NCBI RefSeq assembly: GCF_000092645.1
Contig: NC_014165.1
Location: 1,922,001 to 1,986,000 of the forward strand
Source: Thermobispora bispora DSM 43833
GTDB lineage: Bacteria; Actinomycetota; Actinomycetes; Streptosporangiales; Streptosporangiaceae
Direction of reading: 5' to 3'
DNA length: 64,000 nt
The notes under the pieces are model-generated. The model made no database searches and was not told the origin of the DNA. It saw only the letters and a program-made list of their open reading frames with translations. Positions within the stretch are counted from its first letter, which is position 1, and each line of letters begins with the position of its first letter. Positions 33,266-44,585 of this stretch are shown here, piece after piece. A program made the position numbers and the translations under genes.

Positions 33266-33295
33266 TTGCTTGATCGCCGTGCGCGTCGCTACGCT
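33266..33295 (+). promoter_or_regulatory. Putative trpL promoter
   Basis: TTGCTT (33266-33271), 18-nt spacer, TACGCT (33290-33295). The -10 box ends 7 nt before the leader-peptide ATG, so transcription would start at the ATG and the leader peptide would be translated from a leaderless mRNA. Confidence 0.6.
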
Positions 33296-33302
33296 GTACG
33301 GC

Positions 33303-33347
33303 ATGCGAGACCACGCCGCTTCGCCGATCTGGTGGTGGCGCCGCTGA
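33303..33347 (+). CDS. trpL: trp operon leader peptide
   Basis: 14 codons: MRDHAASPIWWWRR. Three consecutive Trp codons (33330-33338) sit just before the first arm of a hairpin series upstream of the anthranilate synthase gene. This is the hallmark of ribosome-mediated attenuation; Streptomyces venezuelae has a comparable trp leader. The peptide itself has no other function. Stop TGA at 33345-33347. Confidence 0.88.
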   Translation: MRDHAASPIWWWRR

Positions 33348-33410
33348 ACGGCGGCGCGGGTTTCGCATTGTCACGCAGCGTGGACCGGCCGCCCCGTGAG
33401 GCGGCCTTAT
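33338..33410 (+). promoter_or_regulatory. Trp attenuator (pause, antiterminator and terminator hairpins)
   Basis: Arm 1 GCGCCGC (33338-33344) pairs with arm 2 GCGGCGC (33351-33357). Arm 2 region GGCGGC (33350-33355) can instead pair with GCCGCC (33388-33393) in arm 3. Arm 3 GGCCGCC (33387-33393) pairs with arm 4 GGCGGCC (33400-33406), loop CCGTGA, followed by TTAT, as the terminator. A ribosome stalled at the Trp codons would cover arm 1 and favour the 2:3 antiterminator. Confidence 0.82.
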
Positions 33411-33456
33411 GTATGTCCGCCCCCGGGGCATTCGACGAATCAGAGGGGCGTGGACA

Positions 33457-35625
33457 GTGGAGACCAGCGGATATATCACAGCCGGCAGGATCGCCGTCGA
33501 GCGCGAGGCGCGCGAGGTGCCCGAGGAGGCGCTCGAGGAGATCGTGACGGCGCTGCGGGAGCGCCGGGGCGGGGCCTTCTCCTCAGGCATGGACTACCCG
33601 GGCAGGTACAGCCGGTGGGCGTTCGGCTACGTCGATCCCTGCCTGGAGATCACGGCGCGGGGCCGGCGCGTCACGGCCCGCGCGCTCAACGACCGCGGCA
33701 TGGTCGTCTTCCCGGTGATCGCCTCCTGCCTGCTCGCCGCGGGCAAGCCGGTCTCCGGGCCCGACCGGGGCTCGGTCGAGGTGGTCATCCCCGAGTCCGA
33801 GGAGCTCCTCCCGGAGGAGATGCGCAGCCGCCGGCCGACGGTGTTCAGCGCGATCCGCGAGGTGATCGCCGCGTTCAAGGGCGAGGACCCCCACCTCGGC
33901 CTGTACGGCGCGTTCGGCTACGACCTCGCCTTCCAGTTCGAGCCGATCCGGCTCCGCATCCCGCGGCCCGAGGACCAGCGCGACCTCGTCCTCCACCTGC
34001 CCGACCGGCTGGTCGTGATCGACCGGGTGCGCGAGACCAGCATGGAGTACCGCTACGAGTTCACCGTGGACGGCGTCTCCACCCGCGGCCTGCCGCGCAC
34101 CGGGGAGACGATCCCGCTGGTCGCGCCCGAGCGCATCCCCCCGGGCCCGCGCAAGGGGGCCTACGCCGAGATCGTGGCCAAGGCCAAGGAGCGGTTCGCG
34201 CGGGGCGACCTGTTCGAGGTGGTGCCGAGCCAGGTCTTCTACGGCGCGTGCACCGACCCGTCCGCCTTCTACCGCGCGCTGCGCACCAGCAACCCCGCGC
34301 CGTACGAGTTCCTGCTCAACCTCGGCGACGGCGAGCACCTGGTCGGCGCGTCGCCCGAGATGTACGTGCGGGTCACCGGCGACCGGGTCGAGACCTGCCC
34401 GATCTCCGGCACCATCGCCCGCGGCGCCGACCCGGTCGAGGACGCCGAGGCGATCCGGACCCTCCTGTCCAGCGTGAAGGAGGAGTCCGAGCTCACCATG
34501 TGCACCGACGTGGACCGCAACGACAAGTCGCGGATCTGCGTGCCCGGGAGCGTGCGGGTCATCGGCCGCCGCCAGATCGAGATGTACTCCCGGCTCATCC
34601 ACACGGTCGACCACATCGAGGGCCGGCTGCGCCCCGAGTTCGACGCGCTCGACGCCTTCCTCACCCACATGTGGGCGGTGACCGTCACCGGCGCGCCGAA
34701 GACCTGGGCGATGCAGTTCATCGAGGACCACGAGGACCAGCCGCGGCGCTGGTACGGCGGGGCCGTCGGCTTCCTCGGCTTCGACGGCTCGATGAACACC
34801 GGCCTGGTCCTGCGCACCGCGCAGATCCGGCACGGGGTCGCCGCGGTGCGGGCCGGGGCGACGCTGCTGTTCGACTCCGACCCCGCGGCCGAGGAGCGGG
34901 AGACCGAGCTGAAGGCGAGCGCCCTGCTCGGCGCGCTCGCCGCCGCCGAGCGGCCCGCGCAGGAGGAGCCGCCGGCGGAGCCGGCCGAGCGCCCGGGCGA
35001 GGGGCACACGGTGCTGCTCGTCGACCACGAGGACTCGTTCGTCAACACGCTCGCCGACTACTTCCGCGCCCAGGGCGCCTCGGTGGTCACCCTGCGGCAC
35101 GGCTTCCCGCTGGAGAAGCTCGACGAGATCGCGCCGACCCTGGTGGTGCTGTCGCCCGGGCCCGGCTGGCCGTCCGACTTCGGCTGCTCCGCCCTGCTCG
35201 ATGCCGTGTACGCCCGCGGGCTGCCGGTCTTCGGCGTCTGCCTCGGCCTCCAGGCGATGGTCGAGCACGCCGGCGGCACCCTGGAGCTCCTGCCGTACCC
35301 GGAGCACGGCAAGCGCGGCCGGATCCGGCGGGAGGGGGAGAGCGCGCTCCTCGACGGCCTGCCCGAGGAGTTCGTCGCCGCCCGCTACCACTCGCTGCAC
35401 GCCAAGCGCTCCGGGGTGAAGGGGTTCACGGTGACCGCGACCACCCCGGACGGCGCGGTGATGGCGATCGAGGACGTGGCGAACCGCCGGTTCGCCGTGC
35501 AGTTCCACCCCGAGTCGATCCTCACCACCCAGGGCGGCAACGGCGCCAAGATCATCGCCAACGTGCTGCGGCTGTGCGCCGGGGCCCGGGACCGCGCCGG
35601 GCGGGCGGCCACCCCGGCCGGCTGA
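33457..35625 (+). CDS. trpE(G): Fused anthranilate synthase, TrpE-TrpG
   Basis: 722 aa. Residues 1 to about 510 are the chorismate-binding component I (EFLLNLGDGEHLVGASPEMYVRVTG, CPISGTIARGAD, VKEESELTMCTDVDRNDKSRIC, AVTVTGAPKTWAMQFIE). After a Glu/Pro linker, about 530-720 form the glutamine amidotransferase (LLVDHEDSFVNTLADYF, LSPGPGWPSDFG, FGVCLGLQAMVEH with nucleophile Cys, and VQFHPESILT). It makes anthranilate from chorismate and glutamine, the first step to tryptophan. The start is GTG 33457 (AGAGGGG site); the earlier ATG 33409 lies on the attenuator terminator. Regulated by the upstream leader. Confidence 0.95.
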   Translation: METSGYITAGRIAVEREAREVPEEALEEIVTALRERRGGAFSSGMDYPGRYSRWAFGYVDPCLEITARGRRVTARALNDRGMVVFPVIASCLLAAGKPVSGPDRGSVEVVIPESEELLPEEMRSRRPTVFSAIREVIAAFKGEDPHLGLYGAFGYDLAFQFEPIRLRIPRPEDQRDLVLHLPDRLVVIDRVRETSMEYRYEFTVDGVSTRGLPRTGETIPLVAPERIPPGPRKGAYAEIVAKAKERFARGDLFEVVPSQVFYGACTDPSAFYRALRTSNPAPYEFLLNLGDGEHLVGASPEMYVRVTGDRVETCPISGTIARGADPVEDAEAIRTLLSSVKEESELTMCTDVDRNDKSRICVPGSVRVIGRRQIEMYSRLIHTVDHIEGRLRPEFDALDAFLTHMWAVTVTGAPKTWAMQFIEDHEDQPRRWYGGAVGFLGFDGSMNTGLVLRTAQIRHGVAAVRAGATLLFDSDPAAEERETELKASALLGALAAAERPAQEEPPAEPAERPGEGHTVLLVDHEDSFVNTLADYFRAQGASVVTLRHGFPLEKLDEIAPTLVVLSPGPGWPSDFGCSALLDAVYARGLPVFGVCLGLQAMVEHAGGTLELLPYPEHGKRGRIRREGESALLDGLPEEFVAARYHSLHAKRSGVKGFTVTATTPDGAVMAIEDVANRRFAVQFHPESILTTQGGNGAKIIANVLRLCAGARDRAGRAATPAG

Positions 35626-44263: not shown

Positions 44264-44315
44264 CCGAGGTGTCCGGCACCCGGTTGAGGGTAGAGTGACA
44301 CCGCGCCGGCGACCC

Positions 44316-44506
44316 CGTGCGGGAGAGACCCCTGTTCGGCAGGGGCGCCGAAGGAGCAACCTTCTCCCCGGAATCTCTCAGGCACCCGTACCGCACGGGC
44401 GAGGCAACTCTGAAGAGCAGGCCCACCCGGCAGGGTGCGGCCTCACCGAAGGGGAAAGCCGGGCCCCGGCGGCCCGGTGAAGCTCTCAGGTCGGGCGACA
44501 GAGTGG
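44316..44506 (+). promoter_or_regulatory. Tandem glycine riboswitch
   Basis: Two gcvT-type aptamers. Aptamer 1 is closed by CGTGCGG (44316-44322) and CCGCACG (44391-44397) and contains GGGAGAG, GCCGAAGGAGCAA and TCTCAGGCACCC. Aptamer 2 is closed by ACTCTG (44406-44411) and CAGAGT (44499-44504) and contains ACCGAAGGGGAAAGCC and GCTCTCAGGT. An 8-nt linker joins them, as in cooperative glycine riboswitches. It activates glycine cleavage when glycine is plentiful. TAGAGT at 44291-44296 may be the -10 box. A 6-bp hairpin (44528-44547) lies between aptamer 2 and gcvP. Confidence 0.95.
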
Positions 44507-44585
44507 GGAGACCGCAGCGAGGGCCGTGCCGTGCCACCGGACACGGCGGACGCCATGGTCTCGACCCGCCGAGGAGGCACCTGTC

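Follow-up and report, generated by a model that had tools for sequence, protein, structure and literature searches.

The trpE(G) leader region of Thermobispora bispora

The DNA analysed here (the window) is a stretch of 64,000 nucleotides (nt) from Thermobispora bispora DSM 43833 (contig NC_014165.1, positions 1,922,001 to 1,986,000 of the forward strand), the genome of which consists of a single contig of 4,189,976 bases. On its forward strand the window carries the fused anthranilate synthase gene trpE(G) (33457 to 35625, GTG start at 33457), the product of which exceeded the cut-offs of both PRK13566 and TrpE-clade3 in an NCBIfam profile search, and upstream of it, on the same strand, a putative ribosome-mediated trp attenuator. 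The leader open reading frame (ORF) at 33303 to 33347 encodes the peptide MRDHAASPIWWWRR (14 codons, followed by a stop codon), which includes three Trp codons (33330 to 33338) and is predicted to be translated from a leaderless mRNA with a transcription start site at or next to A33303. A -10 box, TACGCT (pattern TAnnnT, kept in relatives; 33290 to 33295), ends 7 nt 5' of the ATG at 33303, and a -35-like TTGCTT (33266 to 33271) is located 18 nt 5' of the -10 box. Four arms follow: arm 1 (GCGCCGC, 33338 to 33344) and arm 3 (GGCCGCC, 33387 to 33393), both recognized from sequence, fold and relatives, arm 2 (GGCGGCGC, 33350 to 33357), a partner of either arm 1 or arm 3, and arm 4 (GGCGGCC, 33400 to 33406), the 3' arm of the terminator, behind which a terminator scan placed an imperfect U-rich tail (UUAUGUAUGU, 33407 to 33416). 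In the minimum free energy (MFE) fold, leader nt 1 to 10, start codon included (AUGCGAGACC, 33303 to 33312), were paired with the non-coding segment directly 3' of arm 2 (GGUUUCGCAU, 33359 to 33368), and the resulting helix, here called P0, enclosed hairpin 1:2. A preliminary description of this DNA, made from the letters alone, had proposed a trp attenuator at the locus; when the sequence was re-read, its coordinates for the -10 box, leader, Trp codons, four arms and fused trpE(G) were all correct. That interpretation was right as far as it went and incomplete, since the covarying helix P0 had been overlooked.

The region has the sequence parts expected of a trp attenuator, namely a leader ORF with tandem Trp codons and mutually exclusive antiterminator and terminator hairpins with an imperfect U-rich tail. 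Two elements were unusually stable compared with dinucleotide shuffles: hairpin 1:2 (z -3.30, equalled by 1 of 200 shuffles) and the stretch of the terminator (z -2.53, 2 of 200). The whole leader was modestly so (z -1.96, 6 of 200), and the stretch 33336 to 33420 gave a z of -1.14 (27 of 200). The stability of the antiterminator alone was not above chance, given the z of 0.21 for its stretch (33348 to 33420; 110 of 200 shuffles as good). One terminator was found by the scan where 0.4 were expected. When nt 1 to 42 were masked to mimic stalling at the first of the Trp codons, the 2:3 antiterminator folded, as the preliminary description had predicted from the geometry of the arms; when nt were masked up to the stop codon, the 3:4 terminator folded. 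Neither the window leader nor six related loci matched an Rfam family at the curated score, and below this score the window leader matched unrelated families only (best E 0.21).

Conservation of the leader, hairpins and -10 spacing

A set of 80 relatives with trpE(G) was compared, in 76 of which a leader with WW or WWW was detected by script, giving 77 leaders with the window included. They comprise a Streptosporangiaceae group (window, L008-L042, L072 and L085), a Thermomonosporaceae group (L043-L069 and L081; mostly Actinomadura and Actinoallomurus, and some metagenome-assembled genomes of other names) and others. The window was part of alignment A1 and of the per-leader shuffle, swap and MFE-count tests, and lies outside alignments A2 to A4 and covariance model R1. 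L058, with its leader of 28 codons, was excluded from the swap tests, the fold counts and A1. With L030, a duplicate, also set aside, 75 unique leaders remain, and A2 holds the 58 of these that share the same distance from ATG to arm 1. From A3 and A4, L024 and L067 (P0 bulged, in another register) and leaders of other lineages (L071, L077, L078, L082-L084, L086 and L087) were omitted by hand.

Hairpins 1:2 and 3:4 and the Trp codons were conserved across the trpE(G) relatives: all arms were detected by pattern in 77 of 77 leaders, WWRR occurs within 75 of the 77 peptides, and the second pair of the terminator hairpin differs between the two clades (G-C versus A-U). Absence of Trp codons and hairpins from relatives had been set beforehand as a possible refutation of the attenuator; they were present, together with the leader itself, in 76 of 80. 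No leader was visible in two of the four relatives missed by the script (L068 and L070), and in a third (L076) a leader without the usual stop could be seen by eye. In the fourth (L062), a -10-like TACGCT and the terminator remain and the leader ORF between them is gone. The extra codons of L058 lie between the start and WWW, and its pairing between start and linker is retained.

With spacings of 3 to 10 nt allowed, 75 of the 76 script-detected relatives had TAnnnT at 6 or 7 nt upstream of the start codon, and L049 had it at 10 nt. A -10 box 5 to 7 nt ahead of the start codon, with no room for a Shine-Dalgarno sequence, is what characterizes leaders of the Streptomyces lividans trpL1 type. In the 5'-end data reported for S. 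lividans, the mean distance from -10 box to transcription start is 6.3 nt, and it is 5 to 7 nt in 88.7% of cases (PMC8079986); by this measure transcription should start at the A of the ATG, and the leader mRNA is most likely leaderless, in agreement with the preliminary description. The -35 element is less general: a TTG with a spacer of 16 to 19 nt was found in 38 of the 77 leaders. Most leaders of the Streptosporangiaceae group have it, clearly and at 17-18 nt (32 of 38), and few of the others do (6 of 39). A simple scan of the leader region for sigma-70 promoters returned none.

The second codon was CGA in 67 of the 77 leaders, although among Arg codons of the 80 trpE(G) genes CGA has a share of only 1.4%, so that the bases, and not the amino acid, seem to be selected. 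Taken alone, this excess could equally be caused by leaderless initiation. As a general preference of leaderless starts, CGA was discarded: it occurred once among 77 other candidate starts, a weak control as these starts are unverified.

Helix P0 among trpE(G) relatives

Pairing of the leader start with the segment following arm 2, with covariation, had good support in both the Streptosporangiaceae and the Thermomonosporaceae group. P0 cells paired in 88.2% of cases in A3 (29 Streptosporangiaceae-group leaders) and in 95.9% in A4 (19 Thermomonosporaceae-group leaders), and for the whole structure the values were 95.2% (versus 35-49% when slid) and 97.3% (versus 28-54%), respectively. Most P0 pairs of trpE(G) leaders are nearly invariant, and two-sided changes are few; in A4 two P0 pairs change on both sides, a number reached by 6 of 500 shuffles. 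In the swap test, permuted linkers were as good as a leader's own in 1 of 2000 permutations for 25 Streptosporangiaceae-group leaders with unique starts and in 0 of 2000 for 14 Thermomonosporaceae-group leaders, results in which shared ancestry is still contained. For the window leader, shuffling the linker 100 times gave an equally good pairing with the start in 1% of cases. The complementarity of the 5' arm is kept in relatives, and P0 as a conserved helix is well supported by these comparisons.

The count of MFE pairs was rejected as proof of P0. At least six such pairs were found in 219 of 228 leaders, but shuffled linkers themselves had a mean of 7.4-8.1 pairs in all of the seven groups except one, where it was 4.5, and the case for P0 therefore rests on covariation.

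P0 in leaders of trpS and trpE-like genes

Model R1, built from trpE(G) leaders without the window, found the window leader (E 1.8e-10) and, as a second match in the source genome, G000:C1:3650236-3650343 (L100; E 0.003), which lies upstream of trpS (TIGR00233). The L100 leader, MRMIAVLLGWWRP, has TAnnnT at 6 nt and a perfect P0 (GCGGAUGA:UCAUCCGC). At E 0.01, R1 had a match in 75 of 394 genomes of the class. From the matches without loci, 39 regions were fetched, and together with L100 they yielded 36 scored leaders, with L147 and L148 (trpE(G) of the window family), L161 (no leader) and L167 (no hairpin by script) left unscored. By sequence motif, 15 of the 36 stand before trpS, 13 before a trpE-like gene and 8 are unsorted. 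A family search identified the genes at L100, L131 and L139 as trpS, and those at L132, L135, L142 and L160 as anthranilate-synthase-like, with PRK13566 as best match, under its cut-off; at L160 the PRK13566 match spans the amidotransferase part too, all below the cut-off, and the trpE-like genes of this wider set are thus not to be called non-fused. The swap test gave 0 of 2000 permutations as good for all 36 leaders, 1 of 2000 for the 15 trpS leaders and 16 of 2000 for the 13 trpE-like leaders. The letters of P0 differ between loci, as in UACGCGA:UCGCGUA (L132, L146), GCAUGCGC:GCGCAUGC (L137) and GUGCUGA:UCAGCAC (L145).

The strongest evidence that leader starts covary with the segment after arm 2 came from the trpS leaders of a single genus with large genomes, presumably Streptomyces, that was reached through genome G020. 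Model R2 had a match in 163 of 246 genomes. The leader is present in all 80 trpS loci that were excised by exact coordinates, and in each of them TAnnnT lies 7 nt (60 loci) or 6 nt (20 loci) before the start (4-9 nt allowed). Of 110 trpS loci, 73 entered a MAFFT alignment (A6), outside of which are 22 missed by the leader script, 3 duplicates and 12 near copies dropped by hand. P0 paired in 91.9% of cells in A6, compared with 0.7-62% when slid, and 74 cells carried two-sided changes, where shuffles gave 31 +/- 4 and none of 500 was as good. The covariation score was 0.400, versus 0.255 in shuffles (0 of 500 as good) and at most 0.209 when slid. RNAalifold found six of the nine P0 pairs unaided, and 3:4 as well, with hairpin 1:2 displaced by other pairs. 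For 40 A6 genomes, hand-picked for diversity, a tree of the trpS region was built with FastTree, and on it parsimony placed 11 two-sided, pair-keeping branch changes in P0, compared with 0-1 when slid, and 28 one-sided changes that keep the pair.

For the trpE-like leaders of the same genus, the pattern was found in 68 of 121 genomes. Of 30 such loci, 29 had TAnnnT at a distance of 6 or 7 nt from the start, and the remaining one probably lies within another gene; in 25 of 28 folded leaders the pairing with the segment after arm 2 begins at nt 1-3.

In one family (f28; L144 and L168), a leader with WW of like build also stands before a gene that in L144, the locus scanned, has a methyltransferase domain (PF08241). 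A further type of leader, MRAVRLLLSEPR (L350-L379, of which L350 precedes leuS), has TAnnnT at 6 nt (29) or 7 nt (1) in 30 of 30 cases. The idea that every leaderless attenuator has P0 was dropped, as 12 of the 15 leuS-type folds printed have a small local start hairpin instead.

Comparison with known systems

Leaderless trpL is already known, and the window leader adds another case. From 5'-end RNA-Seq, two leaderless leader peptides are reported for S. lividans: TrpL1 (MFAHSTRNWWWTAHPAAH) ahead of trpE and TrpL2 ahead of trpS (PMC8079986). The window leader resembles them in having a leaderless Trp leader peptide and hairpins ahead of the gene, whereas the peptide differs, and for S. lividans the available parts of that report speak of two hairpins without mention of a paired leader start (PMC8079986). 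Leaders of this trpL1/trpL2 kind that were retrieved here do show P0. In Sinorhizobium meliloti, trpL (rnTrpL) before trpE is a leaderless small ORF by Ribo-seq, with 14 amino acids and WWW, and a role in trans is reported for the terminated leader RNA (PMC10117765). The annotated S. meliloti trpLE leader before anthranilate synthase (L088) resembles the window in that its MFE fold joins leader bases 5-7 and 9-14 to a segment that follows arm 2, and differs in leaving the AUG free. Among the rhizobial trpE(G) leaders, early bases were paired with CAUGCGUGAU after arm 2 in L088 and in L089 (Shinella), and not clearly so in L090. Because the AUG is spared and only two of three rhizobial leaders (L088-L090) show the pairing, a P0-like helix in rhizobia is only a lead.

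The trp attenuators of Streptomyces and Corynebacterium described by Seliverstov et al. 2005 (PMC1262725), the only two genera for which trp attenuators are named in the available parts of that study, likewise carry UGG in tandem (two or three copies) and alternative hairpins for antitermination and termination. Their alignment begins at the Trp codons and ends at the terminator, and so does not reach the 5' arm of P0 (PMC1262725). A description of P0 was not found in the available text of the open-licence PMC papers searched, a scope outside which the 1998 study of S. venezuelae lies, and as far as these searches reach P0 is a new and well-conserved feature of these attenuators.

The trp leader of Escherichia coli shares the four-arm logic. 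It has an untranslated region with a Shine-Dalgarno sequence, unlike the window leader, and its start region has been reported to pair downstream, limiting synthesis of the leader peptide or re-reading.

Proposed mechanism and alternative explanations

Comparison of the sequences supports the leader with its Trp codons, the spacing of the -10 box, arms 1-4 and the conservation of P0 as a helix; the start site, the ribosome stall and the role of P0 as a gate we infer. Transcription would begin at the A of the leader AUG, and the leader would be translated off leaderless RNA. With charged tRNA-Trp scarce, the ribosome would stall on the Trp codons and mask arm 1, so that 2:3 pairs and trpE(G) is made; with ample Trp it would get to the stop codon and the 3:4 terminator would form. 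P0 could form only once about 64 nt have emerged, and the start would be closed once the transcript passes about 33366. In computed folds of the window, the bases of the start codon were open (at least 0.95 unpaired) with the transcript ending at 33362, nt 3-6 were closed by 33366, and at 33368 nt 1 and 2 were mostly closed (0.37 and 0.09 unpaired). On a leaderless message, about 19 bases from the 5' end have to be taken up by the 70S ribosome, and judged from the trpS, trpE-like and other leader sequences the 5' arm of P0 lies mostly within this stretch. The ribosome would hence have to load before the 3' arm emerges, that is on nascent RNA, and a finished or terminated leader would not be reloaded, so that each is read about once. 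We consider a ribosome-mediated trpE(G) attenuator with a leaderless leader and a P0 gate that closes the start to be, as a whole, the probable explanation of the locus. Its kinetic component, in which loading of a 70S ribosome on the 5'-terminal AUG is confined to the first 60-70 nt of transcription and the leader is silent thereafter, is put forward tentatively, at somewhat less than even chance.

If this is correct, leaderless initiation would be timed against RNA polymerase, and models of trp attenuation in Streptomyces that lack P0 would be incomplete; to the question of how transcription and translation are coupled in attenuation without a ribosome-binding site, P0 would offer a testable answer in which the message opens and closes its own start. 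The clear covariation in one set of trpS leaders means that an RNA family can be defined. A computer model of S. venezuelae trpE gave no dependence on tryptophanyl-tRNA unless RNA triplexes were considered (PMC4833913), a gap that P0 may fill.

Several observations weigh against P0 as a helix that gates the start. Among trpE(G) leaders, two pairs of A3 change on both sides, which 228 of 500 shuffles also reach; the swap test was not significant for the 11 leaders outside the two groups (336 of 2000 permutations as good); and more than 5% of shuffles were as good in 27 of the 77 leaders, these being GC-rich RNAs. In the window, the MFE pair count was equalled or exceeded by 12 of 20 shuffles, and nt 3-5 were transiently paired (0.13-0.15 unpaired) at transcript end 33350, before P0 exists. 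Within the class set, more than 5% of shuffled linkers were as good in 27 of 36 leaders (9 of 36 reach 5%). For A6, the numbers of two-sided pairs (6; 37 of 500 shuffles) and pair types (16; 91 of 500) were weaker than the covariation score, and on the trpS tree 30 one-sided changes break a P0 pair (43-78 when slid), as do 4 two-sided changes, all at the innermost pair, 26-76. P0 of the trpS leaders mostly begins at nt 9 and spares the AUG, with start-codon nt paired in 15 of 88. The terminator, finally, is generally independent of P0, the probability of hairpin 3:4, P(3:4), remaining above 0.5 with P0 blocked in 37 of 38 Streptosporangiaceae-group leaders.

It is also conceivable, if rather doubtful, that P0 merely extends hairpin 1:2, aiding its snap-back and preventing a ribosome-free antiterminator, with the block of initiation as a side effect. 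P0 does surround hairpin 1:2, it begins off the AUG in most trpS leaders, and in the window blocking its 5' arm cost 8.0 kcal/mol in ensemble energy, gave an antiterminator-like MFE fold (-52.3 versus -60.5 kcal/mol) and lowered P(3:4) from 1.00 to 0.52. In most leaders scored this effect did not hold: with P0 blocked, P(3:4) exceeded 0.5 in 37/38, 21/25, 13/13, 20/22 and 24/26 leaders of the five groups scored, a test for which the terminator pattern fitted only 22 of 88 trpS and 26 of 29 trpE-like leaders. A thermodynamic default-off role of P0, attractive in the window, fails in most leaders scored and is for this reason retained solely as a rival to the start-closing gate.

The start-closing gate presupposes a leaderless message. 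A transcription start further upstream, giving a 5' untranslated region without a Shine-Dalgarno sequence and leaving TAnnnT as a coincidence, could be read from the negative promoter scan and from the lack of a TTG at -35 distance in all but 38 of the 77 leaders; it is made highly unlikely by the spacing of 6 or 7 nt in 75/76, 80/80 and 29/30 leaders or loci of three gene types, and by the leaderless trpL1 and trpL2 of S. lividans and trpL of S. meliloti (PMC8079986, PMC10117765). That the arms of P0 form an inverted repeat near the promoter might suggest a DNA operator, bound by a repressor at its two halves, and not an RNA helix. These halves are 46 nt apart and flank a coding region, and their variation tracks RNA pairing, G-U included; as the letters change between clades while complementarity persists, the operator was rejected as extremely improbable.

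Other features of the region

A Shine-Dalgarno-like AGAGGGG of trpE(G) was recognized by eye at 33442 to 33448 on the forward strand. Within 33416 to 33456, GUCCGCCCC could pair with GGGGCGUGGAC, covering this sequence. A hairpin hiding the Shine-Dalgarno sequence was not retained as a conserved element, since GCCCC followed by GGGGC was present in just 32 of the 77 trpE(G) leaders. The upstream neighbours of the leader, mreB and mreC, are encoded on the opposite strand. Elsewhere in the window, positions 44310 to 44511 contain tandem glycine riboswitch aptamers (RF00504, 76.5 and 44 bits).

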